64,000 nucleotides of DNA from contig NZ_CP104395.1 in assembly GCF_029207735.1 (NCBI RefSeq), positions 310,001 to 374,000 on the forward strand, in the 5' to 3' direction. The notes below the pieces were generated by a model. That model saw only the letters and a program-made list of their open reading frames with translations. It was not told where the DNA came from and made no database searches. Positions 9,391 to 31,440 of the stretch are shown piece by piece. Position 1 is the first letter of the stretch. Each line of letters begins with the position of its first letter. The position numbers and the translations under genes were made by a program. This stretch comes from Candidatus Nanohalococcus occultus. Lineage in GTDB: Archaea; Nanohalarchaeota; Nanosalinia; Nanosalinales; Nanosalinaceae.

Positions 9391-9714
9391 TTACATCGGA
9401 GGCATTCCGTCGTCGTCTGGACCGCCCATTCCTCCGCCGGGTCCGCCGCCCATCATGTCTCCTTCGTCCATCATTCCGCCGCCCATCGAATCAGTTTCCT
9501 TCATATCGTCCATGAGGTCTCTGATCTCGTTGATCTTCTTGTTCAGCGATGACTCGGAGTCAGGGTCCTGTAGTTCGTTCCGGAGCTGTTTTACCTTTGT
9601 TTCAAGCTCTCGGGCTGTTTTCCCGGTGCTTCCGTATGTTTCAAGCATCATTTCAGCAGAGTCCAGTACTGCCTCGGCTTCCTCTTTCTTATCAGCGAGT
9701 GACATATTCACCAC
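9391..9714 (-). CDS. DnaK C-terminal lid-like small protein
   Basis: 107 residues. Two amphipathic helices (about residues 5-40 and 55-73: KKEEAEAVLDSAEMMLETYG, NKKINEIRDLMDDMKE) are followed by a Gly/Met/Asp-rich tail (GGGPGGGMGGPDDDG). This order resembles the alpha-helical lid and GG-rich tail at the end of Hsp70/DnaK, without the ATPase and peptide-binding domains. No DnaK gene is in the window. It could be a stand-alone lid paralogue or simply a convergent helical protein; the resemblance is by eye. Confidence 0.6.
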   Translation of the reverse strand: MVNMSLADKKEEAEAVLDSAEMMLETYGSTGKTARELETKVKQLRNELQDPDSESSLNKKINEIRDLMDDMKETDSMGGGMMDEGDMMGGGPGGGMGGPDDDGMPPM

Positions 9715-10369: not shown

Positions 10370-10744
10370 TTACTCCTCGATCTCTCCGAAGGCGAACTTC
10401 CGTCCAACGGATGTAATCTCGACGTCGTACTTTTCGCCGACTTCTCCGCCAGGTACGAAGACTACGAATCCTTCAACGCGAGCAATACCATCGCCCTTGG
10501 ATCCTAGGTCTTCGATCTCTAGTTCGACTGTCTCTCCTTCTTCTACAGGCTTATCGTAATCGTTGTCGTCGCCTGAATCATCGGAGTTGTCTTCGAAATC
10601 GTCGGATTCTTGCTGTGGCTCGTCGTCGAAGCCATCTTCTTCCTCGAATCCGTCTTCTTCGTCGAACTCTACTTCATCTTGGGTTTCGTCTTCGAAGTCA
10701 TCTTCGAAATCCTGTTCAAAATCGTCTTCAAAATCATCTGTCAT
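10370..10744 (-). CDS. TRAM-domain RNA-binding protein with acidic extension
   Basis: 124 residues. The C-terminal 60 residues form a TRAM domain ([20 protein letters not shown], then [18 protein letters not shown] and KFAFGEI), a small beta-barrel that binds RNA. Stand-alone TRAM proteins are abundant in archaea and have been proposed as RNA chaperones. The first 65 residues are almost wholly Asp/Glu with Phe at intervals ([17 protein letters not shown]), an unusually long acidic tail. Its codons are repetitive GAA/GAT/TTC, so replication slippage may vary its length. Confidence 0.8.
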
Positions 10745-10841: not shown

Positions 10842-11606
10842 ATGCCGCAGCAAGGAGGACAGTGTCCGTTCTGCCAGCTCATCCAGAACCCGGATCAGCT
10901 GATGCTAGTCGGAGAGTCCGAAAACTTCTACGCATGGCTCGAAGTAAATCCGCGGGCCAAAGGTCACTCGATGATCGTACCTAAAGAACACAAGGAAAAC
11001 GTATTAGAGTTTTCAAGCAAGGAGTGGACGGAAGCGTTCAATTTAACACGTGAGGTCGTAGAAAAAGCCAAGAAAGGCATAGGAGCTGACGGCGCATCGA
11101 TAACAGTTAACATAGAGGAAGCAGGCGGCCAGATGCTGCCTCACGCATACATACAGGTATTCCCTCGTTTCCAGGGAGAGGAAACAGCAGGTACTCCGAC
11201 GGGCGCGATCTTCCCGCAGCGTGATGAGCTTCAACAGCAGCTTGACTCGATCGCAAGCGACATGAACTCCGCATCGGTCGATATCGGCGGTGGAGAGGAG
11301 ATCGAAGCCCATCCGGAAAGCCAGAGGTTCAAGGATCCGGAACCCGAGCCAGAACCGGATGACTCAGAGGACGAAGAACAGGAGGCTGAAGAGCCGGAGA
11401 CTGAGCAGAAGGTTGTCGAAAAAGAAATCGAGGTTAAAGATGCCGGAGAGCTTTCGGAAGACGAGCTTGTCCAAGAATTAATCAACCGGCATGGCTCACG
11501 TGAAGGTTTTGTCAGCTCGGAGACTTTCGAGCAGATCATATCGGGGACAGGTTTCAGTCTGAAGAAGTCCTCGAACTACGAGAAAAAGAGCTTTGACTGG
11601 ATCTGA
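10842..11606 (+). CDS. HIT-like protein with degenerate active site
   Basis: 254 residues. The first 130 follow the HIT fold: CPFC at residues 8-11, NPRAKGHSMIVPKEH (30s-50), and an active-site strand at residues 100-108. The canonical H-x-H-x-H is here H101-A-Y103-I-Q105, so the nucleophilic second histidine is Tyr and the third is Gln. The zinc ligands expected for the branch (C8, C11, H50, H101) appear kept. Residues 155-200 are an acidic linker, and the last 50 form a separate helical domain (LVQELINRHGSREGF). It is probably a binding or regulatory protein rather than a nucleotide hydrolase (inferred). Confidence 0.75.
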   Translation: MPQQGGQCPFCQLIQNPDQLMLVGESENFYAWLEVNPRAKGHSMIVPKEHKENVLEFSSKEWTEAFNLTREVVEKAKKGIGADGASITVNIEEAGGQMLPHAYIQVFPRFQGEETAGTPTGAIFPQRDELQQQLDSIASDMNSASVDIGGGEEIEAHPESQRFKDPEPEPEPDDSEDEEQEAEEPETEQKVVEKEIEVKDAGELSEDELVQELINRHGSREGFVSSETFEQIISGTGFSLKKSSNYEKKSFDWI

Positions 11607-11681: not shown

Positions 11682-14600
11682 ATGACTGAATACAATCCTC
11701 AACAGCTGGAAGAAAACGTCAAACAGTTCTGGGAAGAAAACGACGTAAAACAGAAAGTAAGAAACTCGACGGAAGGAAACGATCCTTTCTACCTTGTCGA
11801 TGGCCCTCCATACCTGAACGGTGCGCCCCACGTTGGCCACATGCAGGGAAAGGTTCTGAAAGACGTTATGCTGCGTTTCAAGCAGATGCAGGGCTTTGAC
11901 GTCTGGGATCAGGCAGGTTTCGATACCCATGGACTTCCCAACGAGCTTGCTACCGAGGAAGAACTCGGTGTTGAGGACAAAAACGAGATAGGGAAAAGCA
12001 TTTCCGCAGCCGAATTTATCGAAAAATGTAAGGAACGGGCTACATCCGCACAAGACTTGTGGAAAGGGGTTATGGGGGATCTTGCGATCTGGCAGGACTT
12101 CGAGGATCCGTACATGACTTACGATCCGGAGTATATCGAAAGCGAGTGGTGGCTTGTCTCACAGGTCGAAGAACAAGACTTGCTTTACAAGGATCTGAAG
12201 CCTATTCACTGGTGTCCGAGATGTCAGACATCGCTTTCAGGGTACGAGGTCACCGACGCATACAAGGACGTCGAGGACTTAGCGGTTTACGTCAAGTTCC
12301 CGCTGGCCGGACGAGAGGAGAAAGTGGTTATCTGGACGACAACGCCTTGGACGATCCCGGCGAACATGGCTGTGTTCGTACATCCAAACATTAGATACGC
12401 GCGGGTTGAGCTAAACGGAGAGAAACTAATAATCGCAGAAGAGCTTGTCGGTGAGGTTCTCGGCAAGGCAGGTTACAGCGCTGAAGACTACGAGATACTT
12501 GATACGATGGTCGGAAGCGACCTCGAATCCATGAAGTACGAGCATCCGATGGTCGAGGAAGCACCGAAACAGAAAGAACTGGACGAAGAGAACAACGTAC
12601 ACCGGATCCATACCTCGGATTCGCTTGTAACCTTGGAAGACGGTACGGGACTGGTTCATGCCGCAACAGGACATGGACAGGAAGATTTCGAGGAAACCCG
12701 GCACCTGGATATACCGATCTTCTCACCGGTTGATAGGGAAGGAAAGTACACCGAAGAAGTTGAGGCGTACGAAGGAGAGTACGTACACGATGTAAATGAA
12801 AAGATAAGAGACAGACTGGATGAGAAAGGTCTTTTGCTCAACAGCGAGGGCTTCCAGCACGAGTACCCTCACTGCTGGCGTTGTAAAACTAAACTGGTCT
12901 ACCGTGCGGCCGAACAGTGGTTTATCGAAAACAACGAAGTTAAAGAACGGATGCTGGAGGAAAACAAAGACGTTGACTGGATACCGGATGAAATCAAAAA
13001 ACGGTTCTCGAACTTCGTCGAGGACTCACCGGACTGGTGTATCTCCAGACAGAATTACTGGGGTGTCCCGGTACCTATCTGGGAATGTAGCGAATGTGGA
13101 GATTACGAGGTAATCGGTTCCTTCGAACAACTGGAGGAGAAAGCTGGAGGACTACCGGAGGACTTCGATCCTCACAAACACCACGTCGATCCGATAACCT
13201 GGAGCTGTGAGTGCGGCGGAGAAAAACAGAGAGTCGAAGACATTCTCGATGTATGGTTTGATTCAGGTTCCGCGCCTTTCGCATCACTACATTATCCTTT
13301 CGACGAGGAGCCTTTCGAGTCGATGTTCCCGATGGATTTCATCACAGAGGCATCGGATCAGATCCGTGGATGGTTCTACTCTCTGATGTTCTGTGGAATC
13401 CTCGGATTTGATGAGGTGCCTTACGAGAAAGTTCTTTTCCAGGCACACGTCCTGGATGAGAAAGGAAAGAAGATGAGTAAATCCGTAGGAAACGTCGTCG
13501 ATCCCGTAGAACAGATCGAAGAGTACGGAGCGGACCTACCACGGTTCTACTCGATGAGGGTCGCACCGGCATGGGAGCAGACAAAGTACGATGAAACCGA
13601 GATAAGACAGGAGATCTACCGGTTGTTCAGCGTCTACTGGAACACGGTAAACTTCCTGACAGGACACGGACTCGAGGTAAACGAAGAGCCGGAAAGCCTC
13701 GAAATCGAGGATAGATGGATGCTTTCCCGAATCGAAAGTATAACAGAAGAAGCACAGGAACGAATGGAAAACTGTGTTTTCCACAAGCAGGCCAGAGAAC
13801 TCGAAGAGTTCGTCTTGGATGATCTATCCCGCTGGTACGTAAAGAAGGTCCGTCAACGCGTCAAAAACGGAGACCGAGCGGCTTCATGGACCTTGAGACA
13901 GGTACTTGAGAAGGTTAACAAACTGTTCGCGCCTTTGACGCCGTTCATCTCCGAGAAAGTCTACCAGGAACTAGAAGGTGAGAAATTATCGGTTCACATG
14001 GAAAGCTTCCCGGAAGCCGACCAAGAGCTGATAGATGAATCGCTTGAGGTTGGAATGGATCTGGCCCGTGAAGTTGTAGAGGAATCGAACAAGATCAGGG
14101 ACAAAAACGAGTACAACCTTCGATGGCCGGCCAAGAAACTCACGGTCTCGACAGGTAAAAGAGAGGATTTAGAGCGGTTCGTTCCGCTGATCAAGGAGAT
14201 GGCGAATGTCAAAGCCGTGGAGTTCGGAGACGTAGAATCACGAATAACGGCTTCTCCTGATTACTCGTCTCTCGGACCGAAGTTCGGTGGAGATGCCGAT
14301 AAGGTCGCAGGGCTGATCGAGGACATGGAAAACGAACAGGTAAACCAGTTGAACTCGACAGGAACTATTATCTTGGACGATTACGAGATATCCGAAGAAG
14401 ACGTAGAGTTCGAGAGCCATACCGTCGGCGATGTCAATCAAAGGTCTTTTTCGGCAGGAGAAGTATTCCTGGATCTCGAGGTAACACCGGAGATCGAACA
14501 GGAAGCGTTTGTATCGGAGGTAATCCGTGCTATCCAGCAGAAAAGAAAGGAGGCTGGACTCGAGATGGAGGATGCCGTTGAAATCTCGTTCGAAGGCGAC

Positions 14601-14768
14601 TACGAGCCTGTCAAGGAACACGAGGATTCGCTGAAGGAAAGAGTCAAGATCGAGTCCGTAGAGTACGGATCAGCCGACAAGGAATTCCAACAAGAGGTAA
14701 ACTTCGAGGATGAAAGACTTTCCGAGCCGAGAACCCTAAAGTTCTCGTTCTCAAAACCAGTGGCTTAA
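11682..14768 (+). CDS. ileS: Isoleucyl-tRNA synthetase
   Basis: 1028 residues, a full-length class I synthetase. The HIGH motif is HVGH at residues 50-53 after DGPPYLNGAP, and the KMSKS motif occurs in KKMSKSVGNVV (about residue 600). The CP1 editing domain (WTTTPWTIPANMA, with LVHAATGHGQED) is present and would remove mischarged valine. ILDVWFDSGSAPF and the DQIRGWFYSL segment are IleRS-specific. The C-terminal anticodon-binding and extra domains are of the archaeal/eukaryotic type. Zinc-like cysteine sets occur at HWCPRC, HCWRCK and CSECG. Charges tRNA-Ile in the cytoplasm. Confidence 0.97.
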   Translation: MTEYNPQQLEENVKQFWEENDVKQKVRNSTEGNDPFYLVDGPPYLNGAPHVGHMQGKVLKDVMLRFKQMQGFDVWDQAGFDTHGLPNELATEEELGVEDKNEIGKSISAAEFIEKCKERATSAQDLWKGVMGDLAIWQDFEDPYMTYDPEYIESEWWLVSQVEEQDLLYKDLKPIHWCPRCQTSLSGYEVTDAYKDVEDLAVYVKFPLAGREEKVVIWTTTPWTIPANMAVFVHPNIRYARVELNGEKLIIAEELVGEVLGKAGYSAEDYEILDTMVGSDLESMKYEHPMVEEAPKQKELDEENNVHRIHTSDSLVTLEDGTGLVHAATGHGQEDFEETRHLDIPIFSPVDREGKYTEEVEAYEGEYVHDVNEKIRDRLDEKGLLLNSEGFQHEYPHCWRCKTKLVYRAAEQWFIENNEVKERMLEENKDVDWIPDEIKKRFSNFVEDSPDWCISRQNYWGVPVPIWECSECGDYEVIGSFEQLEEKAGGLPEDFDPHKHHVDPITWSCECGGEKQRVEDILDVWFDSGSAPFASLHYPFDEEPFESMFPMDFITEASDQIRGWFYSLMFCGILGFDEVPYEKVLFQAHVLDEKGKKMSKSVGNVVDPVEQIEEYGADLPRFYSMRVAPAWEQTKYDETEIRQEIYRLFSVYWNTVNFLTGHGLEVNEEPESLEIEDRWMLSRIESITEEAQERMENCVFHKQARELEEFVLDDLSRWYVKKVRQRVKNGDRAASWTLRQVLEKVNKLFAPLTPFISEKVYQELEGEKLSVHMESFPEADQELIDESLEVGMDLAREVVEESNKIRDKNEYNLRWPAKKLTVSTGKREDLERFVPLIKEMANVKAVEFGDVESRITASPDYSSLGPKFGGDADKVAGLIEDMENEQVNQLNSTGTIILDDYEISEEDVEFESHTVGDVNQRSFSAGEVFLDLEVTPEIEQEAFVSEVIRAIQQKRKEAGLEMEDAVEISFEGDYEPVKEHEDSLKERVKIESVEYGSADKEFQQEVNFEDERLSEPRTLKFSFSKPVA

Positions 14769-15927: not shown

Positions 15928-16086
15928 ATGAACAAAGACGCAGCTGACAAGCAGAAAGAGAAGGCAAAGGAAATGCTAGGAATTGACGACGAACGCGCAA
16001 AGGAAATCTTCAAAGAGCAGCCAGACCGCAAGCAGCAGAAAAAGAAAGAGATCGAAGAGAAAAGAAAGGAGCTAGACGGGAAATAA
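15928..16086 (+). CDS. Small charged helical protein, 52 residues
   Basis: A short open frame with ATG at 15928 and TAA at 16084-16086. The product is almost entirely Lys, Glu, Gln, Asp and Arg (starts MNKDAADKQKEKAKEMLGI, ends RKELDGK) and should be one or two charged helices. A TATA-like TTTAAAC lies at 15899-15905, about 25 bases upstream, matching leaderless archaeal promoters. Codon use matches neighbours. No family recognised; possibly a nucleic-acid or ribosome-associated peptide. Confidence 0.5.
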   Translation: MNKDAADKQKEKAKEMLGIDDERAKEIFKEQPDRKQQKKKEIEEKRKELDGK

Positions 16087-16103
16087 AGCTCCTATCCTTT
16101 AAC

Positions 16104-16125
16104 CTTTCACGTCCAATTCTGAGAC
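16104..16125 (-). repeat. Very decayed CRISPR repeat fragment
   Basis: CTTTCA and AATTCTGAGAC flank a short gap, like the two ends of an array-1 repeat with its middle deleted. It lies just beyond the better-preserved fragment at 16154-16168, at the oldest end of the array. Confidence 0.35.
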
Positions 16126-16153
16126 CATTTCATTCGCGCATTAGGTACCATAA

Positions 16154-16168
16154 TCTGACTTCTGAGAC
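16154..16168 (-). repeat. Truncated terminal CRISPR repeat of array 1
   Basis: TCTGACTTCTGAGAC is identical to the last 15 bases of the array-1 repeat as read on the plus strand; the rest is lost. A 37-base spacer separates it from the first full repeat. Terminal degeneration marks the leader-distal end. Confidence 0.8.
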
Positions 16169-16205
16169 TTATTCTTCTCTTCCTTGATCTCTTGAAGGGC
16201 TTCAG

Positions 16206-18484
16206 CTTTCAATTTGTTCTTAATTTTCTGACTTCTGAGACGGAGGTGAATGAGAAGATGGTACATAGATACGTGACTTTCAATTTGTTCTTAATTTTCT
16301 GACTTCTGAGACGGTTCAAGACGTTTCTTACAGCAATATTTACAGACGCCTTTCAATTTGTTCTTAATTTTCTGACTTCTGAGACAATATCCCAGAAAAC
16401 ATCGTAACCCTCGTTGACCTCTTTCAATTTGTTCTTAATTTTCTGACTTCTGAGACCCGGTGATTTAGAGAATCGTTCCTTAAATCAAAATTCTCTTTCA
16501 ATTTGTTCTTAATTTTCTGACTTCTGAGACCAGCTAGAATGATGATGCTATAGGCAAGGATCTTTCCTTTCAATTTGTTCTTAATTTTCTGACTTCTGAG
16601 ACTCAGCGGTAATAGTTAAAGCGTTAGCTTCAAATGAACTTTCAATTTGTTCTTAATTTTCTGACTTCTGAGACGGGAATGTGGGAACTGGAAATCTACA
16701 TGACCTTCGCCTTTCAATTTGTTCTTAATTTTCTGACTTCTGAGACCCTAATGAACTACTAGGCGGAACATTCGGCATACTTTCTTTCAATTTGTTCTTA
16801 ATTTTCTGACTTCTGAGACGAATCGGCCTGTTTCCTGTGATACCTGCCAGGCTTAACTTTCAATTTGTTCTTAATTTTCTGACTTCTGAGACTCCACTTA
16901 ATATTGTCTTCCGAGCCATACTGCATTCTTTCAATTTGTTCTTAATTTTCTGACTTCTGAGACCCGGCATAATAATCGGCCAGAAGAAGCATTACTACCT
17001 TTCAATTTGTTCTTAATTTTCTGACTTCTGAGACTATGCTTTATATTCGAGTTCTGAGAATTGAAACTTGCTTTCAATTTGTTCTTAATTTTCTGACTTC
17101 TGAGACCTGACGTAACCCTCTACGATCAGAACGATACAAGCCTAGCTTTCAATTTGTTCTTAATTTTCTGACTTCTGAGACCTCTGGTTGGTTACAATTA
17201 CGTTGCCGTCCTCTCGCTTTCAATTTGTTCTTAATTTTCTGACTTCTGAGACACTCTTGAGATAAAGGATCAAAATGTATTCGGAGACTTTCAATTTGTT
17301 CTTAATTTTCTGACTTCTGAGACAGAACGGGTTTCACCGCAGTACAGACGCTCAGCCGCCTTTCAATTTGTTCTTAATTTTCTGACTTCTGAGACTTCAA
17401 GACGTCTTGAAGGAACTGTCAAAGATTCAAACGCTTTCAATTTGTTCTTAATTTTCTGACTTCTGAGACTTCATACACTTCCGATGTATTCGTGTCAGTA
17501 AATCTCTTTCAATTTGTTCTTAATTTTCTGACTTCTGAGACTCTCTTGAGACATTCCATTCAGATTTAGCAAGATCAGACTTTCAATTTGTTCTTAATTT
17601 TCTGACTTCTGAGACACCGTTGAAACTGACGGTGTAGTCCGGATCTACCGTCTTTCAATTTGTTCTTAATTTTCTGACTTCTGAGACGCTTTTGATCTCG
17701 CGGTTTTGACTTTTCAATCTGTCCTTTCAATTTGTTCTTAATTTTCTGACTTCTGAGACAGAGTGTTGAACGAACTGATTAAAGATGCGGCTATCTTTCA
17801 ATTTGTTCTTAATTTTCTGACTTCTGAGACCTCGCCTTTGATTTGATTGGTGAGTCCACTAGTGATGACTTTCAATTTGTTCTTAATTTTCTGACTTCTG
17901 AGACCGATAATTATGCCTACTATACATCTCGTACCACAGGCTTTCAATTTGTTCTTAATTTTCTGACTTCTGAGACTTGAGGCCACGGCTTACGACAGCC
18001 AAGGGAACCCTTCACTTTCAATTTGTTCTTAATTTTCTGACTTCTGAGACCTGAGAGAATACCAACTACCAGACCTATAAGCAAAGACTTTCAATTTGTT
18101 CTTAATTTTCTGACTTCTGAGACCAGTCCGCATCCCCCAGACAAGCCTATTGATGCGACTTTCAATTTGTTCTTAATTTTCTGACTTCTGAGACCCCCGG
18201 GTTCTGGGTCGATACGTCCACGATCTCCGGGCTTTCAATTTGTTCTTAATTTTCTGACTTCTGAGACTGCCTATATCGGATTCATTGATGCTTTTGATCG
18301 TAGCTTTCAATTTGTTCTTAATTTTCTGACTTCTGAGACGCTACCCCCCATCGTATGTAGTCCATGCTGCTTGGACTTTCAATTTGTTCTTAATTTTCTG
18401 ACTTCTGAGACATTTCAGTCAGATGAAGAAGGCTGGACAAATCCAGGACTTTCAATTTGTTCTTAATTTTCTGACTTCTGAGAC
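16206..18484 (-). CRISPR. CRISPR array 1 (32 full repeats, type I-D locus)
   Basis: 32 full repeats of 36 bases separated by 31 spacers of 35-39 bases. On the plus strand the repeat begins CTTTCAATTTGTTCTTAATT and ends TTCTGACTTCTGAGAC; on the transcribed minus strand it begins GTCTCAGAAGTCAG and ends AAATTGAAAG, the usual archaeal 3' handle. First full repeat is at 16206, last at 18449-18484. The leader lies at the right (18485-18588), directly after cas2, so new spacers enter at the right and the left end decays. One spacer (18340-18375) is identical to one in array 2. crRNAs would be cut by Cas6 and loaded into the Cas10d/Csc1/Csc2 complex. Confidence 0.98.
18340..18375 (-). other. Spacer shared with array 2
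   Basis: This 36-base spacer (begins GCTACCCCCCATCGTATG, ends GCTGCTTGGA) is identical to the spacer at 22933-22968. It is the second spacer from the leader in array 1 and fourth in array 2. Confidence 0.95.
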
Positions 18485-18588
18485 CGGTGGTTGATATAGT
18501 GTTATATTGGTTATTAACGTTTTTGAGTTCTTGATTTTGGATTTCTTTTTCGTGGAGAGGGGTTGTACAGTTGACTTTTATAGGTCGG
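18485..18588 (-). promoter_or_regulatory. Leader of CRISPR array 1
   Basis: This AT-rich region between the first repeat and cas2 shares blocks with the leader of array 2: GGTGGT next to the repeat, CTTGATTTT, TTTCGTGGA, then GAGGG-TGTAC-GTT-ACTT. On the minus strand CCTATAAAAG (18575-18584) is a good TATA box, so the array transcript would start about 60 bases before the first repeat. Spacer-integration signals are expected in the conserved blocks. Confidence 0.8.
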
Positions 18589-18855
18589 TTAAACTACTGT
18601 TGATTGTTCGTCGTCTGTGGTCTTGCCAATTTCTTCGATGTTGTCGACGTTGGTAGGTGTGAGTGGATATATTCGGATATGTTCTTCGCTGGAGATTATT
18701 TCTTTCAGCTTGTGTTTGAGTTCGGTGTACTGTGTTTTAGATAGGTCGACTTCGAAGGCGGAGTACTGTTTCCAGGCACCGTAGCTTTTCAGTGCTTTAC
18801 GGGTTTCTTTGCGGGATTTGTCGTCGCTGATGTCGTAGATTATGATGTATCTCAT
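18589..18855 (-). CDS. cas2: CRISPR adaptation endonuclease Cas2
   Basis: 88 residues of ferredoxin-like fold. The start MRYIIIYDIS places the conserved Asp at residue 8, and SAFEVDLSKTQY plus IRIYPLTP match Cas2 strands. Cas2 forms the bridge of the Cas1-Cas2 integrase. Its ATG overlaps the HEPN gene's stop (ATGA, 18852-18855), so it is the last gene of an MNT-HEPN-cas2 operon and not adjacent to cas1. The C-terminal tail after residue 75 is unusual and acidic. Confidence 0.93.
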   Translation of the reverse strand: MRYIIIYDISDDKSRKETRKALKSYGAWKQYSAFEVDLSKTQYTELKHKLKEIISSEEHIRIYPLTPTNVDNIEEIGKTTDDEQSTVV

Positions 18856-19295
18856 TTTTGGTCTTGTATCCGGGGTTTTAGCTGGTTTAGAAGCTCTTGG
18901 TAGAGTTGTCTTATGTTTTTGGCTTCTTCTGTGGTTGCGATTTCTCCTCTGTAGGATATGTCGTTTCTTAGCTTACGGTATCGGTTTAAAGTGTTTGCGT
19001 TTACAAGGTCTATTTCTAGTTTGTCTATGGCGTAGGCGATGATTGCTTCGTGGCTGTAGGGTTTGAATCCTTCGGCGGCCATAAGGCTTTGTACAAGCAT
19101 CTTACATGATTCGTATACGTTTTCCAGGTAATCGGTTGCGGTCTCGTCTTCTATACCCAGTCTTTCCATGGTCTCAAATTTTGATTCAGAACGTCTTAGG
19201 AGGTTGGATGCCTGAGCAGGGTCTTTTCTGTTATCTCTTACCTTGCCGCGTTCAATGTAGTCTTGGAATCTGTCGATTTCGTGAGGTCTATTCAT
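18852..19295 (-). CDS. HEPN-domain protein upstream of cas2
   Basis: 147 residues, mainly helical, with the HEPN signature region RYRKLRNDISYRG near residues 105-117. HEPN domains are often RNases with an R-x4-H motif; here R110 is followed by N-D-I-S-Y115, so His is replaced by Tyr and catalysis is doubtful. It overlaps both the nucleotidyltransferase gene (19293-19297) and cas2. HEPN plus MNT pairs are a common archaeal toxin-antitoxin type in which the MNT modifies and silences the HEPN. The tie to cas2 is unusual. Confidence 0.8.
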   Translation of the reverse strand: MNRPHEIDRFQDYIERGKVRDNRKDPAQASNLLRRSESKFETMERLGIEDETATDYLENVYESCKMLVQSLMAAEGFKPYSHEAIIAYAIDKLEIDLVNANTLNRYRKLRNDISYRGEIATTEEAKNIRQLYQELLNQLKPRIQDQK

Positions 19296-19822
19296 TACGA
19301 GGTCACATCCAGGTATCCGGCCAATACCATTCCATTTGCCAGCGTGTTTTTGAACTCTTCATTTTCGTTCCCTAGATCTTCAATCCGTGTGAGCTGGATT
19401 TTTCTTCCAAGCTCTTTTTCAAAACTCGTTAGATCCAATCTTTTTTCGCGTCCGCCGATCACCGCTATATCTATATCGCTTTCAGCCCTGTCTCTCCCGT
19501 CCAAATAAGATCCGAATAACACCACAGCCTCAGGTTTCAGCTCTTTTTCCAGGAACTCTGAAACTTTTGACTGCTCTAGCTTCTCGAGATTAAGTACTTT
19601 CTTCGCCTTCCTAAATCTCTGTTCTGTTGGATAATAGAAAGTCATCTTCGATTCCTTGTTACTTTCCAGAAAACCTTTCTCCTCCAATCCGTTTAAAGCA
19701 GACCTGGTGCTGGAATAAGGCACCTCAATCTTCTTCGATAAGCCACGAACATGGATTTCTTCAGGCATTCTCACAAAATAATCCAACACCTCTCTCTCAG
19801 TTTTGGTTAGATCTTTGATCAT
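19295..19822 (-). CDS. Winged-helix plus minimal nucleotidyltransferase (MNT)
   Basis: 175 residues. Residues 1-75 form a winged helix (LTKTEREVLDYFVRMPEEIHV, then SSTRSALNGLEEKGFLE), suggesting DNA binding. Residues 95-125 hold the nucleotidyltransferase motif LFGSYLDGRDRAESDIDIAV, with G104-S105 and the D116-x-D118 metal pair. In the HEPN/MNT systems the MNT adenylylates or polyadenylylates the HEPN toxin. Here it probably also acts as autoregulator, since an 18-base palindrome covers its start codon. First gene of the MNT-HEPN-cas2 operon. Confidence 0.85.
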   Translation of the reverse strand: MIKDLTKTEREVLDYFVRMPEEIHVRGLSKKIEVPYSSTRSALNGLEEKGFLESNKESKMTFYYPTEQRFRKAKKVLNLEKLEQSKVSEFLEKELKPEAVVLFGSYLDGRDRAESDIDIAVIGGREKRLDLTSFEKELGRKIQLTRIEDLGNENEEFKNTLANGMVLAGYLDVTS

Positions 19823-19831
19823 ATGATCAAA
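19814..19831. promoter_or_regulatory. Palindromic operator over the MNT start codon
   Basis: TTTGATCATATGATCAAA is a perfect 18-base palindrome that contains the start codon of the winged-helix/MNT gene (19820-19822). A second, imperfect palindrome (TAATCACATGGTTA, 19836-19849) lies just upstream and matches 10 of 14 positions to its own complement. A TATA-like TTATTTAA on the minus strand is at about 19847-19855. The layout suits repression by the N-terminal winged helix. Confidence 0.6.
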
Positions 19832-19860
19832 ATTCTAATCACATGGTTAAATAATTGTCC

Positions 19861-19879
19861 ATTTTCTGACTTCTGAGAC
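19861..19879 (-). repeat. Truncated terminal CRISPR repeat of array 2
   Basis: ATTTTCTGACTTCTGAGAC matches the last 19 bases of the array-2 repeat. It marks the leader-distal end; the first full repeat follows after a 35-base spacer at 19915. Confidence 0.85.
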
Positions 19880-20244
19880 CCGCATTTGCTCGATTGTATG
19901 TTGGCATTGCTTAAGTTTCAATTTGTATTCAATTTTCTGACTTCTGAGACTAAACTACATTCAGAAGATTACAGCGTGGAGAAAATGGCTGTTTCAATTT
20001 GTATTCAATTTTCTGACTTCTGAGACTCTATCTGTTCAGCTATTTCCCCTCCGATTTCTTCCGTTTCAATTTGTATTCAATTTTCTGACTTCTGAGACAA
20101 CTTTCAGCAACCGGATTTCTATGTTCGTCCTTCCAGTTTCAATTTGTATTCAATTTTCTGACTTCTGAGACGCTGAGATGGCAGAGCATCTCGAAACGCT
20201 TCCTTTTGGTTTCAATTTGTATTCAATTTTCTGACTTCTGAGAC

Positions 20245-20354
20245 ACTGTGCCTGTGGCCGGATCGTAACTTGCTTCAGGGCGTTTCAATTTGTATTCAAT
20301 TTTCTGACTTCTGAGACACTGTGCCTGTGGCCGGATCGTAACTTGCTTCAGGGC
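20245..20354 (-). repeat. Tandem duplicated spacer unit in array 2
   Basis: The same 37-base spacer (begins ACTGTGCCTGTGGCCGG) occurs twice in a row with one repeat between, as from slippage or unequal recombination between repeats. Confidence 0.95.
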
Positions 20355-22932
20355 GTTTCAATTTGTATTCAATTTTCTGACTTCTGAGACTTTCATGGAT
20401 TCCATCTCACAGGCGCACTGCGTTCCGGTTTCAATTTGTATTCAATTTTCTGACTTCTGAGACTCCTCAGTCATTGTGATTTATCAGCCTCATTGCTCGG
20501 TTTCAATTTGTATTCAATTTTCTGACTTCTGAGACGCAGCTCGGAGTATCTCCCTGTTCAATCACGTTTTTTGTTTCAATTTGTATTCAATTTTCTGACT
20601 TCTGAGACGAACTACGAGGAAGCGAAACAGAATTTGAAGGAGAGTTTCAATTTGTATTCAATTTTCTGACTTCTGAGACACACCGGAGACCATATCATCA
20701 TCCGGCATTAGCTGCGTTTCAATTTGTATTCAATTTTCTGACTTCTGAGACCTCATAGCCTTTTTTTAAGTCTGATTTTTTAACCTCGTTTCAATTTGTA
20801 TTCAATTTTCTGACTTCTGAGACTTGAGATGGAAAACCCGGAAACAGGGGAAAATGTGTCTGCGTTTCAATTTGTATTCAATTTTCTGACTTCTGAGACC
20901 AAGCGGATCTTTAGTTGCAGGTTTTCCACTGATTAGTTTCAATTTGTATTCAATTTTCTGACTTCTGAGACGTTGCCTATTATTTCCATGTGAGTGTATT
21001 CGCCGGGTTTCAATTTGTATTCAATTTTCTGACTTCTGAGACCTTCAGCTGCTCTGAGAAGCCAACCCATTAGGCATCGTTTCAATTTGTATTCAATTTT
21101 CTGACTTCTGAGACCTCCTGATGCCGTGAATGTTGTAGTAGTGCCTTTCTGTTTCAATTTGTATTCAATTTTCTGACTTCTGAGACACTTTTGTAGAAGA
21201 AGTCTGTCTAGTGGCTATAATGTTTCAATTTGTATTCAATTTTCTGACTTCTGAGACATTCAGGTGCTACTGGAACGAACGTGTTTGCACCTTGTTTCAA
21301 TTTGTATTCAATTTTCTGACTTCTGAGACAAAACGAGTCCCTTTTTTCAGGGACTTTTCTTTTACGTTTCAATTTGTATTCAATTTTCTGACTTCTGAGA
21401 CCTACTGCTTCAGTCCCTTCCTCAACAGTATCTTTGTTTCAATTTGTATTCAATTTTCTGACTTCTGAGACGACTAGGTGTGGTAATGTCAACACTCATG
21501 AGCTTTTGTTTCAATTTGTATTCAATTTTCTGACTTCTGAGACCTGGGGTCATGGGAGACGGAGCAGATATTCTGATTATGGTTTCAATTTGTATTCAAT
21601 TTTCTGACTTCTGAGACTTCGTAGAGGAGAATCCACGTAAACAGGCGAGCGGCGAGTGTTTCAATTTGTATTCAATTTTCTGACTTCTGAGACCCTTCAG
21701 TCTCACTATTTATCGAAGGCTTAAACTTGGTTTCAATTTGTATTCAATTTTCTGACTTCTGAGACATTACTAGGAACGAGTTCCGTACTCAGCTAGGTTA
21801 CGTTTCAATTTGTATTCAATTTTCTGACTTCTGAGACTTTCGAGTTAGCGCACTAGGCGCCTTGCTCAAGGTCGTTGTTTCAATTTGTATTCAATTTTCT
21901 GACTTCTGAGACGTCAGGGCTTTCTACTATTACGTTTTGTTCGTTTTCGTTTCAATTTGTATTCAATTTTCTGACTTCTGAGACCCCTGAAGGAAGCCCT
22001 GGAAAGTGGACAGGACACAGGTTTCAATTTGTATTCAATTTTCTGACTTCTGAGACCAGTTAGCTCTAGCTGCGTCGTTTTTTTCTCTTTACCGTTTCAA
22101 TTTGTATTCAATTTTCTGACTTCTGAGACACTATATGATGTTGCTCTAAACAAGCTCGGTCTTTTTGTTTCAATTTGTATTCAATTTTCTGACTTCTGAG
22201 ACATAGTATTATTTTCTCACCTCTTTCATCGGTTCATTATGTTTCAATTTGTATTCAATTTTCTGACTTCTGAGACTCTCCAGCTTCATCTGGGAGCAAT
22301 ACATCCACCAACGTTTCAATTTGTATTCAATTTTCTGACTTCTGAGACCGGATGATGTTCAAGCGTTTAACACTCGCAGAGTCTTGTTTCAATTTGTATT
22401 CAATTTTCTGACTTCTGAGACAGCCTGGCTGAGCATCCAATGTTCTGATTGAGAGATGGTTTCAATTTGTATTCAATTTTCTGACTTCTGAGACAGAATA
22501 ATCGACTTTCTTCATCGCAGAGTTAGTCAAGTTTCAATTTGTATTCAATTTTCTGACTTCTGAGACGTTGGAACATACAGTCAGCCTCAGATAACTAGCT
22601 TTGTTTCAATTTGTATTCAATTTTCTGACTTCTGAGACCTAGGCCGAGAACTTCTAATTCTCTAAAAATCTCTGCTAGTTTCAATTTGTATTCAATTTTC
22701 TGACTTCTGAGACCTTTCGTCTCAAATTCTCCGAGTTTTGTCATAGTCCAGTTTCAATTTGTATTCAATTTTCTGACTTCTGAGACAAGAGGAGAAGCTA
22801 TTAGCTCCCAGACCATTATCTCGGTTTCAATTTGTATTCAATTTTCTGACTTCTGAGACTAGTTCTGACCGCACCATGAACACTTTCTCATGATTGGTTT
22901 CAATTTGTATTCAATTTTCTGACTTCTGAGAC

Positions 22933-22968
22933 GCTACCCCCCATCGTATGTAGTCCATGCTGCTTGGA
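22933..22968 (-). other. Spacer shared with array 1
   Basis: Identical to 18340-18375 over all 36 bases. Its position near the leader in both arrays suggests recent acquisition by each or transfer between arrays. Confidence 0.95.
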
Positions 22969-23225
22969 GTTTCAATTTGTATTCAATTTTCTGACTTCTG
23001 AGACATCACATCGTTGGTCTGAGTACGGTATTCCTCCAATGAGTTTCAATTTGTATTCAATTTTCTGACTTCTGAGACCCGATGTTCATCGGTTCTTCCC
23101 TCCGGCTAGAGCCATCAGTTTCAATTTGTATTCAATTTTCTGACTTCTGAGACACGGTACAACTTTTTGTTCACCGACCGCTATTCTATGTTTCAATTTG
23201 TATTCAATTTTCTGACTTCTGAGAC

Positions 23226-23334
23226 TGGTGGTAAATCATGTTCTATATGCGCTCTTATTTGTTCTGGTTGCTTGATTTTTGAGAGGTGTTTCGTGGATGA
23301 GGGCTGTACGGTTTACTTATATACGTCCTTGAAT
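23226..23334 (-). promoter_or_regulatory. Leader of CRISPR array 2
   Basis: Related to the array-1 leader (same order of GGTGGT, CTTGATTTT, TTTCGTGGA and GAGGG-TGTAC blocks). On the minus strand ACGTATATAAGT (23315-23326) is a TATA-like box overlapping the region just after the cas1 stop. Confidence 0.8.
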
Positions 23335-24348
23335 TCAGCGGTTGAAAACCAGGGGGTGGTATTTCTGGTTTTCGCCTGTAATCACTTTCCTCAAGAGTAT
23401 GGACTGTAATCGGATTGCTTTTCTGCGTGTTACTTGGTACTCGAATTTTGGGTGTCGGAACTTTTCGTTCATGTAGTCTTCCCATTTTTCGAGGTATGTT
23501 GAGAATTTTTCGTCTTTCAGGTGGTTGTCTTTACGGAAGTCTTCGTGGGTGAGTGTCTGCCGGTTGATTAGTCGCATTGTGAATGTGTCGGCGAATAGGG
23601 GTCGGAACTCCTCCATCAGATCCAGTGCCAGGCTTGGTCGACCGTGTCTGTCGACATGCATAACTCCGAGGAACGGATCCAAGTTGTACTGTCTCAGTCC
23701 GCTCAAGACCTCGTTTTTCAGAAAGGTGTAGGTCAGTGATAGCAGCGAGTTTATGTGATCCTCTGGAGGCCTTCTCGTCCGTTTTTCGAAAGTCCAGCCG
23801 TCTCGAAGTGTTTGATCGATTTTTTGGAAGTAGTAGTCCGAGGACTCGCCTTCCCGCGCCCGCAACGTGTCTTTCCCTGGTTTTTCGTTTTTCAGTGTGT
23901 CAAGTACTTTTCCGATTTTTTCGGTTTCTTTCACTCCTTTACGCATCAAGATGGTTTTCATGTTCCGAGCTTTCGCACGTGTTATCTCATGGACTATGTC
24001 TCGTTCTTTTTCTTCAGAGAGCTGGTACTGTTTACGTCTGACTCGGGCGATCGTATTCTTTTCTGGTAGAAAGCTTCCTTCGTAGTTGCCGTGGATTGTG
24101 AAGTAGTTGACGGTGATCTCTTTCCTGTTACAGTTCTTGAAGAAAGGTGTAGTCAAGTTAACTCCGCCAAACACATTGATTGTATCGACCTGCTCGACAG
24201 GAAAACTCTGCAAAACCTCTCCTTTTTCTCTGACCTCGATACGGCCTTCATCAAGCCCTATCTGGGTTCCCTGCTTTTTAACATAGATAACTGACTGGTC
24301 CATCAGGCCTTCCGAGGCCTTTATTTTCTGCCCGTCTTTCTCACTCAT
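23335..24348 (-). CDS. cas1: CRISPR integrase Cas1
   Basis: 337 residues. Metal-binding active-site residues are visible: Glu in RAREGESSDYYF (E166), His in GVMHVDRHGRPSL (H231) and the acidic DLMEEFRP motif (D243-E246). Cas1 is the catalytic subunit of spacer integration. Its start overlaps the cas4 stop (ATGA at 24345-24348). It is followed by a leader and array 2, not by cas2, which lies about 4.5 kb further on behind the whole array. Confidence 0.96.
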   Translation of the reverse strand: MSEKDGQKIKASEGLMDQSVIYVKKQGTQIGLDEGRIEVREKGEVLQSFPVEQVDTINVFGGVNLTTPFFKNCNRKEITVNYFTIHGNYEGSFLPEKNTIARVRRKQYQLSEEKERDIVHEITRAKARNMKTILMRKGVKETEKIGKVLDTLKNEKPGKDTLRAREGESSDYYFQKIDQTLRDGWTFEKRTRRPPEDHINSLLSLTYTFLKNEVLSGLRQYNLDPFLGVMHVDRHGRPSLALDLMEEFRPLFADTFTMRLINRQTLTHEDFRKDNHLKDEKFSTYLEKWEDYMNEKFRHPKFEYQVTRRKAIRLQSILLRKVITGENQKYHPLVFNR

Positions 24349-24923
24349 TTTCCGTCCACCAGGTTTCCCTGACCGTCTTCCCCAAGCTTTTCAGTCTCCT
24401 CCGGCATACAGTAGCTCCTCGCGCTACAGCCCTTACATTTGTTCCTGTTATCAATTAGCGGTGGAGGATTATCCGGGTCGAGGTTTTGGATTTTCTGTAT
24501 TATCTGTTTGAGTTTTTCGATATGGCTTTTTGTTATCTGTATTCTGTGGCGTTCGTCGGTTCCGTGAAGGTAGAGTGTGCCTGTTCGTACTCTTTGGCCT
24601 GTGTTTTCTTCGAGTAGGAGACAGTATGCGGTTAATTGGATTACATCGTTTTGCCGGTAGTAATCTCCTCTTTTTCTTTCCACAGGGATATTATTCTTTG
24701 ACTCCATGATGTCGATCTTGCCGTGAATTCCAAGGTCTTCGCTTTCAAGGTATATTTCTTCCGTCCAGCCGCCGCGTTCTCCTTTATGCTCGTGTTTCAG
24801 CTTTCCATCTGTGAGAAAATAGTTGTTTCCGGTGGTATCGTAGAATTTCTGATACCAGAGCCTGCGCGGACAGTAGAGGTACTGGTTCAAACTGTTTACA
24901 TTTATCAGGTCTTTGTCTTCCAT
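24345..24923 (-). CDS. cas4: CRISPR-associated exonuclease Cas4
   Basis: 192 residues. The RecB-type nuclease core has GKIDI (D71), VERK (E82, K84) and QLTAYCLLLEE (Q96). The 4Fe-4S cluster ligands are C18 (QYLYCPR) and the C-terminal C163, C166, C172 (NKCKGCSARSYC). Cas4 trims prespacers and fixes PAM choice and orientation. The gene begins 13 bases after cas3' and overlaps cas1, in one long operon. Confidence 0.93.
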   Translation of the reverse strand: MEDKDLINVNSLNQYLYCPRRLWYQKFYDTTGNNYFLTDGKLKHEHKGERGGWTEEIYLESEDLGIHGKIDIMESKNNIPVERKRGDYYRQNDVIQLTAYCLLLEENTGQRVRTGTLYLHGTDERHRIQITKSHIEKLKQIIQKIQNLDPDNPPPLIDNRNKCKGCSARSYCMPEETEKLGEDGQGNLVDGK

Positions 24924-24936
24924 AGGTAGTAGTCCT

Positions 24937-26955
24937 CTAGAACTTGTTATCGTTTATTCTACGCGCCAGATAGAATGCGTTCAGCCCGAAGGCCGTACTC
25001 ATTTCTGATAAGTCTGTAGGTGTTTCAGTATAGTAAAGCATCAGGTAGTCTGAGGTATCGTAGATGGACTGAATCTTGCTTGGGAAGCCTGCTGTAGACT
25101 TGACAGCCATCTTCCTGTCACGTGTATAATTATTCAGTTTTCCGATCGACTCTATTTCAGGATCTGTCTGGAAAGCAATACTGTCCAGGATTTCAGGTCC
25201 TTGTATAGGATTTGTATTATTCTTCCGTAGGTGCTGTATAAACTTCCCGCCGTTGAAAGGTCTTACTCTAACCTTTCTTGGCTCTTCTCTTTTTCCATGA
25301 TATCTACAGTAGCCTTCGACATAATCTTTCAATCCGTCGAACTCCTTCTTATCGTCGTCTGGGATTATGTCGCGAAGCTCTTCTCTCTTCAGGAACTCTA
25401 TTTTGCCCCATGTTAGTAGGTGTCGAAGGTTGTATGCTTTCATTTCTTTTTCCTTTTCATCGTAGAGTAAGGCCTGAAAGTTTTCTCCTCGGTACGTTTC
25501 CAGTGATCTCAAGGTCTCTAGGAGTCGAGGATTTTCGTTAATAAATTCTATTTCATTTCCTAACTCCTTGTCAGATAGTTTGTGTTCATTTGTGGAGAAA
25601 AGGTTTTTGATAAGCTGGAAGGATCTTTTCTGGAATTCTGGTGTCTGTGAGTCTGGAAGTTTTTCGCTTACATTTAAGGTGTGGAAAAGCCATTCCTTGA
25701 CAGAGTATGTTCGAGTAAACGATTCAGGTCTCTCATTTTCATCAAGTTTCTCTTCTACAATAGTTTCCAACTCTTCACGAGTTAAGCTGTCTTTTTTCTC
25801 TGTTTCAATAAGTTCTTTTTCTGTAAAGCAAAGTATTTCGTGTTCTGTCTGTTTTTCTGGGTTTCTGAGGCGTCCAATTCTCTGTATGAATGTTGGTGCA
25901 TCGAACGCTGAGAAGATCAGGTTTTCCACATCGAAGTCAACTCCTACTTCTACTGCTGAGTTACTTACGAGGACATCGAAGTTTTCCAGTTTTTCTCCGA
26001 TATTTTCTCTGTGGAATCCGTCTATCCGCTCTACCTGTAAATCAAGTTTTTCTTCAAGGTAGCTGTAAACGTCATCTACTTCCTTCAGTCCATCAAGCAT
26101 CACAACAGTTCTGCCAGAATTACAAATCTCCAGGATTCTTTCCTGTATCTCTTCCTTTTCTTCACTTATTATTTCTTGACTGGTCTTAAACAGTTCTGCG
26201 TCTCTCAGTTCTAATTCAGCTTCCGGCATTATCTTGGTCGAGTCTTCAAACTCTAGATTGGACGTATCGGAATCTACGATTTCAACGCTGTCAAAAACAT
26301 TTCTTAGTGGTTTAGTTGCTTTTTCATCTGGTGTTGCTGATAGAAAAACTCCTTTCTGTATTTTAGAGGCAGGTTCTTTCATCAAGTAGGATACAGCGTA
26401 CAGCAGATCGTTTCTCTGTTTGACCTCGGCCATGTGAAACTCGTCTACCACCACTATATCGCTACCATTTATCAGAGATTCAAGATTTTGGCCCTGAGGC
26501 CCATAAAGATGCTTTAGAATGAGAATAAGGGTGTCGGGATTAGTGAAAAGAATTGAAGGTTCGTTTTCTAAGAAATCCAGTTCTCGTATTATATGCGCTG
26601 CTGCTTTTCCGTTGCTGTCTGTTCCTATCTCTTTTTTCTTCTCTGAAACAGATTCGCGGGTTAGCTTATCATATTTGAATTCTTTATCTGAAAAATAGTC
26701 ATTGTGAAACTTTCTAGCGGCGTCAACCTGGTCCTCTACTAGTGCGTTTGTTGGGTATACTGCTATTGCGGAAAGGTTATCTTCCAGCACCGGTTTCATC
26801 CAGGAAAAAGTCTTCCCTGAGCCTGTGGGAGATGTGTTGAATAGTATTTTCTCTCCGTCTTCCCGAATTTTTTCCTGTAGCTCCAGTTGATGGCTGTATG
26901 GATTGATTTCAGGGAGATAATTGGCCTGTTTTTGTTCAATATGGAGGCCTGACAA
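24937..26955 (-). CDS. cas3: Cas3' helicase (no HD domain), type I-D
   Basis: 672 residues, superfamily 2 helicase. Walker A TSPTGSGKT (41-49), DEFH box (171-174), motif III LSATP (205-209), and motif VI QRIGRLRNPE. There is no N-terminal HD nuclease; in type I-D that domain sits in Cas10d, which matches this locus. The helicase unwinds target DNA after Cascade binding. It starts 2 bases after the csc1 stop. Confidence 0.93.
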   Translation of the reverse strand: MSGLHIEQKQANYLPEINPYSHQLELQEKIREDGEKILFNTSPTGSGKTFSWMKPVLEDNLSAIAVYPTNALVEDQVDAARKFHNDYFSDKEFKYDKLTRESVSEKKKEIGTDSNGKAAAHIIRELDFLENEPSILFTNPDTLILILKHLYGPQGQNLESLINGSDIVVVDEFHMAEVKQRNDLLYAVSYLMKEPASKIQKGVFLSATPDEKATKPLRNVFDSVEIVDSDTSNLEFEDSTKIMPEAELELRDAELFKTSQEIISEEKEEIQERILEICNSGRTVVMLDGLKEVDDVYSYLEEKLDLQVERIDGFHRENIGEKLENFDVLVSNSAVEVGVDFDVENLIFSAFDAPTFIQRIGRLRNPEKQTEHEILCFTEKELIETEKKDSLTREELETIVEEKLDENERPESFTRTYSVKEWLFHTLNVSEKLPDSQTPEFQKRSFQLIKNLFSTNEHKLSDKELGNEIEFINENPRLLETLRSLETYRGENFQALLYDEKEKEMKAYNLRHLLTWGKIEFLKREELRDIIPDDDKKEFDGLKDYVEGYCRYHGKREEPRKVRVRPFNGGKFIQHLRKNNTNPIQGPEILDSIAFQTDPEIESIGKLNNYTRDRKMAVKSTAGFPSKIQSIYDTSDYLMLYYTETPTDLSEMSTAFGLNAFYLARRINDNKF

Positions 26956-26957
26956 GT

Positions 26958-27647
26958 CTATCTTTTCTGTTTCAGGAATTCCAAGTCACCTGGCAGAACA
27001 GCCTTTTCGTTTTCTCCATAGTTTAGTTCGTAGTAATTTCCTTTGTATCTGGCCTGAAGGATCAAAGGCGCAGGACGTATCTTGCGGGTCAAAAGATCGC
27101 CTTTAGGTTCAAGGCCTGTATCATAGGCGCCGATCGGATGACTGCTTGTAAACTCTCCGTTTTTCTTCTCTATCTCTATTTCCTCTATTTCCAGACTACA
27201 TTTACCCCGTTTCTTACCCAGTCGGAAATATTTTGGAAGTTCGATGTCGTCTTCCGCTATTAGGAAGGTCTCGAATCTGTTTCCGCTTGTGACAACTTTC
27301 TCTGTACCTACTTTTGGAAAGTTTTTGTCTGCTACCTCGTTTTCCGGATCCTGAGCGGACAGATTTCTTTCAGCATACTTGTTCCCTGAAACTGTTGTCA
27401 AGAGATTTGTGTATTTGGTCTCGTTTACAGGTCTTGCTGGAGCCACATAGATGTCTTTTTGGTCTTCTGTGTCTTCTGTGTATGTGGGTTTTCCTAGTGT
27501 GTCTGCGTAACGGGATTTTGAGATTCCGAGCGCATAGTAGAGAGAGGTATTGGAGATGTAACTCCCTGTCTCTACCAGTCTACCTATCTCTCTTGCTGCA
27601 CCTCTTACTATGCCTTCAGTCCTGATTTCAAGTCTGTAAGCCTTCAA
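26958..27647 (-). CDS. csc1: Csc1 (type I-D Cas5)
   Basis: 229 residues. The start MKAYRLEIRTEGIVRGAARE and the later TRKIRPAPLILQARYKG fit the RAMP-fold Cas5 of I-D systems. It would hold the 5' handle of the crRNA. The assignment rests on the RAMP-like pattern plus its place between csc2 and cas3'. Overlaps the csc2 stop by ATGA (27644-27647). Confidence 0.87.
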   Translation of the reverse strand: MKAYRLEIRTEGIVRGAAREIGRLVETGSYISNTSLYYALGISKSRYADTLGKPTYTEDTEDQKDIYVAPARPVNETKYTNLLTTVSGNKYAERNLSAQDPENEVADKNFPKVGTEKVVTSGNRFETFLIAEDDIELPKYFRLGKKRGKCSLEIEEIEIEKKNGEFTSSHPIGAYDTGLEPKGDLLTRKIRPAPLILQARYKGNYYELNYGENEKAVLPGDLEFLKQKR

Positions 27648-28573
27648 CTTTCAACACTTTCCACGAACTCTCGAGATTTTTCCTCCTGGCTTTCCAGATA
27701 ATCTTCAATGTTTTCCCTGACCTCATCCAGAACATCCTCCAAGCTGTCAACTTCCTCACAGTCAAGCCTATCTTCTTCAACAAGCTGATCGAAGGCCTGC
27801 TTCACTGTTTCCTGTACTGTCTCAGAGTCTAGTGTGTCCTGCTCGACAGCTTCTTCTCCAAGTAGTTCGATTGTCTTCTTGGTTACTGCGAGGTTGGAAG
27901 GACCTTCTTCATCTCCTGTGTAAATTCCGAGGATGTGGTTTTTGGTTCGTCCCTGTCGTGAACTTGTTGCGCCGTACCGCTTGTTCTTCATCGTGGTTGA
28001 TAGGAAGAAGGCGACTTCCTCAGGAGTAGCGTCCTTCAAGGTTATGACCGAAGGGAACATTGTTCCAGGTTGGACAAAGTCTGGTTCTCTGATGCCTGTC
28101 ATGGCTTCTTCTCCAGATGTTTCCTGGCTGTAGTTATCGCCCGGAGCGTTCTGGAACTTCTCCTCGACAACTTTCTTCGCATCTCGGAGACTGTAGGCTG
28201 TGTCGTACATGACGCGTGAGGTGATTGAAATGTTTCTGTCGCTGCTGGATGCTGCAGATCCGTACATGACGCATTCAGGGCATTCCTGGCACATCTCGTT
28301 GACATCCATTGTGCATTCGACATCTTCCAGCATTTCTCGTTGCATGGACTTTGCGAACCTGCGGTCGCTTCCACTCTGCTTCCTCATGAACATGAGAACA
28401 GGATTGTATTCGTCATCCTCGAGTCCTATGGTTCCAAGGTCTGCGTCCTGGCCGTTTGTCGTGAATACTGCGTTGCTTTCCAGTTCTCGCAGCACCAGGA
28501 TTGAGACATAGTTGTTTTCTGGTTTGTTTGTAAGTTCTTCTACCGTACCGTTGTCAAGTTGTTCTAAGCTCAT
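27644..28573 (-). CDS. csc2: Csc2 (type I-D Cas7 backbone subunit)
   Basis: 309 residues. A zinc-binding set C87, C95, C98, C101 (in NEMCQECPECVMYGSAA) is characteristic of Csc2. VFTTNGQD near residue 36 and the thumb-like TMKNKRYGATSSRQGRTKNH motif are as in the family. Several copies would form the crRNA-binding backbone. The last 70 residues are an acidic coiled tail, a likely halophile addition. Confidence 0.93.
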   Translation of the reverse strand: MSLEQLDNGTVEELTNKPENNYVSILVLRELESNAVFTTNGQDADLGTIGLEDDEYNPVLMFMRKQSGSDRRFAKSMQREMLEDVECTMDVNEMCQECPECVMYGSAASSSDRNISITSRVMYDTAYSLRDAKKVVEEKFQNAPGDNYSQETSGEEAMTGIREPDFVQPGTMFPSVITLKDATPEEVAFFLSTTMKNKRYGATSSRQGRTKNHILGIYTGDEEGPSNLAVTKKTIELLGEEAVEQDTLDSETVQETVKQAFDQLVEEDRLDCEEVDSLEDVLDEVRENIEDYLESQEEKSREFVESVES

Positions 28574-28601
28574 CTAATTTACACCTTTGAATCTGATAAC
28601 A

Positions 28602-31439: not shown

Positions 31440-31440
31440 T

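Follow-up and report, generated by a model that had tools for sequence, protein, structure and literature searches.

In the window (the whole 64,000-nucleotide stretch of DNA analysed here, taken from the 0.95 Mb single-contig genome of Candidatus Nanohalococcus occultus) we observed a gene for a protein of the HIT (histidine triad) family that no longer carries the residues of the catalytic triad. Our preferred reading, to which we assign a probability of roughly 0.55, is that it encodes a conserved non-hydrolytic HIT pseudoenzyme that acts as a ligand-responsive adaptor rather than as a hydrolase, since its zinc scaffold is under purifying selection, both histidines of the chemistry are gone and an aromatic C-terminal tip has been kept. 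The initial annotation had suggested that this gene may encode a new regulatory derivative; a non-catalytic, regulatory role does appear likely from the comparisons below, but the gene is no one-off, as it is found phylum-wide. That annotation also left out the loss of the third His, the conserved tip and the recurrence of nucleophile-less HIT proteins elsewhere.

Nearly all organisms have HIT enzymes, housekeeping hydrolases whose cellular role is debated, partly since an inactive HINT1 mutant still functions. A free-standing HIT lineage that was stripped of catalysis and yet kept its zinc site and tip would represent a natural separation-of-function experiment, and would indicate that a binding role alone can merit keeping such a gene in genomes of about 1 Mb. 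It also offers two specific candidates, IleRS as the partner and SFEWx as the peptide.

Table 1. Features of the HIT locus, in window coordinates.
Feature	Position	Strand	Basis or remark
Acidic TRAM-domain protein, divergent neighbour	10370..10744	-	Pfam TRAM, 1.3e-16
HIT-fold protein without catalytic triad, whole ORF	10842..11606	+	ATG start, 254 aa
Zinc ligands C8 and C11 (CPFC)	10863..10874	+	Cys at both in 20/20 orthologs; best fold match is Zn-bound 3o0m
Pfam HIT domain, residues 22-111	10905..11174	+	Pfam, 5.5e-11
H42, His of GH motif	10965..10967	+	drifts in orthologs: 12 H, 5 Q, 3 Y
H50, zinc ligand	10989..10991	+	invariant in orthologs
H101-A-Y103-I-Q105, in place of HxHxH	11142..11156	+	zinc ligand H101 retained; both the nucleophile and the third His gone
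GTPTGAIF motif, C-terminal to the HIT core	11190..11213	+	kept in orthologs; P119, A122 and F124 invariant in 20
Acidic, low-confidence linker	11289..11456	+	model confidence, ortholog sequences
Two predicted helices, residues 206-217 and 226-234	11457..11543	+	weak prediction, pLDDT blocks 61-68
C-terminal tip KSFDWI	11586..11603	+	family pattern G-K-S-[FYI]-[ED]-W/F-x, extreme C-terminus
Isoleucyl-tRNA synthetase (IleRS), downstream neighbour	11682..14768	+	Pfam tRNA-synt_1, 5.7e-117

Fold, zinc site and active site

The window protein belongs to the HIT superfamily both by its Pfam match (Table 1) and by its predicted fold. Solved HIT proteins are matched by sequence (best PDB relative 3l7x, 1e-15), and in an AlphaFold2 model made from an alignment of 28 sequences residues 11-110 adopt a HIT fold with block mean pLDDT values of 90-98. 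The top fold match of this model is the Zn-bound HIT protein 3o0m of M. smegmatis (Z 19.2 and rmsd 2.1 over 133 residues); next come 3lb5, 2eo4 and the Ap4A phosphorylases, with HINT1 and FHIT ranking lower. The model of a shorter ortholog, L033, gave the same top of the ranking. The protein therefore shares its fold with the zinc-binding HinT/Hit type (3o0m, 3lb5, 2eo4 and 1y23): the whole HIT domain is matched, and the Cys-x2-Cys and two His positions are equivalent. In contrast to that type, it has neither the nucleophile nor the third His, and it adds the conserved GTPTGAIF motif, an acidic linker and a C-terminal tip. The C-terminal HIT-like domain of CwfJ/Cwf19 (CwfJ_C_1, PF04677) also scored above its cut-off in the window protein (28.2 bits against 21, model positions 10-84 of 122) and matched 10 of the 20 orthologs at E-values up to 1e-3. 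However, the HIT profile gives the window protein a higher score and is found in every one of the 20 orthologs, and archaea have no splicing context; the PF04677 match likely reflects only the signal common to the superfamily. Kinship with CwfJ/Drn1, which was considered on account of this match, found no support other than similarity at the superfamily level.

At the active site the ORF translation bears out what the initial annotation had read, namely HAYIQ in place of HxHxH with C8, C11, H50 and H101 intact. These four residues, the Cys, Cys, His and His ligands of zinc-binding HIT proteins, are invariant in the alignment of all 20 orthologs, and the ligands suggest that the window protein binds zinc. 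Conservation of the Tyr and the Gln in relatives, which had been named as a check, came out as Tyr in 18 orthologs and Ala in two at the nucleophile position, and as Gln in 11, Ile in five, Ser in three and Leu in one at the third position, with His at neither position in any of the 20. Thus neither HxHxH nor HxHxQ, the catalytic forms with a nucleophilic central His, occurs in the window protein or in its orthologs. This cannot be a matter of chance, since all 69 HIT loci outside the clade, obtained in a genome scan whose search motif leaves out the triad, have His at both positions. Relatives with a normal triad, which according to the initial annotation would speak against its reading, are absent from the orthologous group, but do exist as distant homologs and as two paralogs in the same genome, with HxHxH and HxHxQ triads. 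One of these paralogs (L112, G000:C1:110697-111017) reads HLHVQ, the HxHxQ form of the GalT/Ap4A phosphorylase type. Altogether, we regard the loss of catalysis in the window protein and its orthologs as well supported by the sequences.

Whether the pocket still takes up a ligand has to be judged from residues that we take to contact the nucleotide, with roles as in HINT/FHIT: the presumed ribose-contact acid E/D34 is kept in all 20 orthologs, Q97 in 19 and N90 in 17, and the GGQ loop is also kept. Since N90 and H42 vary in some of the orthologs, nucleotide binding may have been lost as well, and one may consider a pure scaffold, in which all that is left is a platform for the tail, dimerised and stapled by zinc. 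We hold this alternative to be less likely than the adaptor reading: the change of H42 to Gln or Tyr in eight orthologs, the loss of N90 in three and the replacement of the third His by Ile, Leu or Ser in nine favour it, whereas the constancy of the acid, of Q97 and of the loop argues against it. Considerably less probable is an active enzyme with altered chemistry, in which Tyr103 would be the nucleophile or the pocket would use water directly. Tyr is indeed the prevalent residue there, but two orthologs have Ala, the third His is gone throughout, H42 drifts and the same genome has paralogs with HxHxH and HxHxQ triads; moreover, HIT enzymes are not known to use Tyr as the nucleophile.

Distribution, selection and the C-terminal tail

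The orthologous group has 20 members in the 60 related genomes searched, 19 within the phylum and one outside it, and counterparts that carry organism names are Nanohaloarchaeota, such as Nanosalina J07AB43 and Nanohaloarchaea M3_22. Its profile finds the gene in 19 of the 28 phylum genomes and in 11 of the 12 that are of good quality (completeness at least 90%, contamination at most 5%), G005 (96% complete) being the sole good-quality phylum genome in which this profile finds no copy. The reading frame is open in all 20 orthologs, and the codons of the HIT core gave dN/dS values of 0.078 (L014/L015) and 0.076 (L035/L012) in two pairs with unsaturated dS; three more pairs gave 0.046-0.077 with dS above 2, and three further pairs were saturated. 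Because dN/dS is about 0.08 and the zinc ligands are invariant across orthologs, these data indicate a maintained gene under strong purifying selection and not a decaying copy; the triad change in the phylum is old. That the gene is a relic under relaxed selection, on its way to being lost, is highly improbable: nine of the 28 phylum genomes do not have it (eight of these are less than 90% complete), but the dN/dS values, the open frames, the invariant zinc ligands and tip, and the presence in nearly all good-quality genomes contradict such a scenario for the clade.

The Aenigmatarchaeota T1Sed10 copies nest within the Nanohaloarchaeota family in a tree of 123 rows, two of which (L012 and L035) represent them, and this suggests that a lateral transfer is the likely explanation. 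The copies in this lineage (L012, L034, L035 and L037) have another C-terminal tip and other neighbours; L012, L034 and L035, all from outside the phylum, end in QWK[RK]MKRG[SG]Y.

Beyond the core, the long acidic linker that the initial annotation had described is real, and the tail of the orthologs likewise consists of a charged linker, mostly acidic, followed by a short tip. The acidity could be ordinary halophile composition. The C-terminal helical domain of that annotation fared less well, for it is weakly predicted in the window protein but is no family feature: residues of about 204-240 (window 11451-11561) form an insertion found in the window protein only. Since the orthologs have no helical segment, the sequences point to a species-specific linker insertion.

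When this helical segment alone was searched against the 28 genomes, matches were obtained in 12 of them at E-values up to 0.1, including its own, with E-values of 0.0015-0.073 in the other 11. Five of the 11 matched ORFs were inspected and all turned out to be one protein, the B12-type ribonucleotide reductase, with the match falling between the Pfam Ribonuc_red_lgC and TSCPD domains (identified in the one ORF tested). The corresponding reductase segment in the window's own genome, between barrel and TSCPD, lies at G000:C1:484090-484227. In the reverse search, a profile of the reductase segment (five rows) hit two places in that genome at E-values up to 10, the ribonucleotide reductase itself (1.5e-10) and the HIT protein (0.012). 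This is suggestive, though not proof, of a mini-module common to the HIT insertion and the reductase linker.

At the tip, the penultimate residue is aromatic in all 19 sequences compared (Trp in 14, Phe in five), with Ser at -5 in 15 and Asp or Glu at -3 in 14; the out-of-phylum member L012 was left out of these counts. The possibility that the tip is a tag common to several proteins was rejected, as no second real ORF in the window's genome carries the pattern: [FY][ED]W-x-stop (TAA or TGA only) has three matches there, of which the HIT gene is the one real ORF and the other two belong to frames only 23 and 14 aa long. Docking of the tip into the protein's own pocket was looked for in the L033 model, in which the tip was not placed (pLDDT 52-56); in the window protein, too, it is placed without confidence (residues 239-254, pLDDT below 50). 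Triad-intact archaeal HIT proteins also have aromatic-ended tails, for example KFR, KFK, EWVFR and DFDF, and the tail is therefore probably older than the loss of catalysis.

Gene neighbourhood and the proposed partner

Neighbourhoods were counted at the 20 ortholog loci, some of which lie on short contigs. IleRS follows on the same strand within 1 kb in 13 of them and farther downstream in two more, and is out of view in five (one of these on a short contig), while a TRAM-domain gene is near 15 and directly divergent in 11. FtsY is found near four loci, and prefoldin is also among the neighbours. Stand-alone archaeal TRAM proteins are described as RNA chaperones (PMC6705878). A small acidic coiled-coil-like protein (9391-9714, minus strand) is near 11 of the 20 loci; it has a conserved end (DDMPPM, DDVPPF, DEMPPL) and matches no Pfam family above cut-off. 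The segment of the window from 16001 to 32000 (about 16 kb) has a lower G+C content (0.39-0.44) and a strong AT skew (-0.21 to -0.29).

The IleRS beside the HIT gene comes in two types that are about 40% identical, one at L001, L003, L006-L008, L010, L011, L013 and L016 and the other at L002, L005, L009, L014 and L015. L001 and L002 share 83% identity over their HIT cores even though their IleRS neighbours differ in type, which indicates that the synthetase has been swapped in place, repeatedly, while its neighbours were retained. Relative to HIT relatedness the two types (window 11682-14768, L218-L231) interleave. IleRS also follows L146 and L147, two HIT genes from another family that have a tail and an intact triad, and a gene of the EF1_GNE type (aEF1B; Pfam-tested for one of the two) precedes two of the nucleophile-less group C HIT genes described below; most other HIT loci examined have no neighbour of this kind. 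Overall, the neighbourhoods of nucleophile-less HIT genes lean to translation (IleRS, TRAM, FtsY/prefoldin and aEF1B), although the IleRS adjacency may merely be inherited synteny, which can persist without function.

If the pseudoenzyme reading is correct, the folded form would be a zinc-stabilised HIT dimer whose pocket may still bind an adenine nucleotide of the AMP, aminoacyl-AMP or Ap4A type, with the covalent His-AMP intermediate being neither formed nor hydrolysed. With its flexible charged linker, the protein would dock on a partner by means of the tip (SFEWx), and gene context suggests that this partner most likely comes from the translation machinery, with IleRS as the first candidate.

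Other HIT proteins offer partial precedents. HINTW/Wpkci of birds is a HIT paralog in which active-site residues have been lost and which presumably acts by binding; it is a recent, sex-linked copy, whereas the archaeal gene is phylum-wide, single and equipped with a conserved tail. The likeness to HINT1 is that of a HIT protein whose regulatory role needs no hydrolysis: HINT1 is an Ap4A-controlled binding protein, its H112N mutant retains a non-enzymatic function, and LysRS, which makes Ap4A, ties it to an aminoacyl-tRNA synthetase (PMC6789022). Aminoacyl-tRNA synthetases produce Ap4A (PMC10148737). HINT1 differs in having kept its catalytic triad, and any Ap4A binding or partner of the archaeal protein is putative. 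Our literature search returned no paper joining Nanohaloarchaeota with the histidine triad or HIT family, DPANN with the histidine triad, or archaea with a catalytically inactive HIT protein, and the papers that combine isoleucyl-tRNA synthetase with the histidine triad appeared to be unrelated.

Nucleophile-less HIT proteins in other small genomes

A wider profile search covered 394 genomes, from which selected matches were inspected, the best-scoring first together with those from small genomes. Among these selected matches there were three more kinds of nucleophile-less HIT protein: group B (HF/HY-[ASV]-x-H, nine rows), group C (HFMIH/HFMLH, HVIVN or HTLIN, six rows) and one HMYFH protein. 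Groups B and C are carried by small archaeal genomes. In the 123-row tree, which has few columns, the label changes at least four times, but the starred branches force only one change and by themselves leave a single origin possible. In a tree of 56 rows, groups A (the Nanohaloarchaeota orthologs), B and C each form one clade (100/99), with four label changes. One origin for all nucleophile-less rows was rejected by the AU test (p 0.011, the grouping being post hoc), whereas one origin for groups A and B was not (p 0.116). These trees and tests indicate that HIT proteins without the nucleophile originated repeatedly among archaea with small genomes.

A broader and rather speculative scenario, which we think doubtful, is that dwarf archaea repeatedly turned a HIT enzyme into a translation-linked sensor, in which a dead, zinc-stapled dimer would read aminoacyl-AMP or Ap4A and signal to an aminoacyl-tRNA synthetase or the ribosome via a linker-borne C-terminal peptide. 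In some lineages such a sensor might possibly be a heterodimer of two adjacent dead HIT genes. At four group C loci (L162, L168, L169 and L170) another HIT gene that likewise lacks the central His is directly adjacent, with the motifs HFAIN, HFAIE, HAMVH and HVLIH, and starts within about four bases of the first gene's end; such pairs could possibly form an obligate pseudo-HIT heterodimer. Each gene of these four pairs has its own tail, and the second genes mostly end in a basic, QLxRxP-like stretch.
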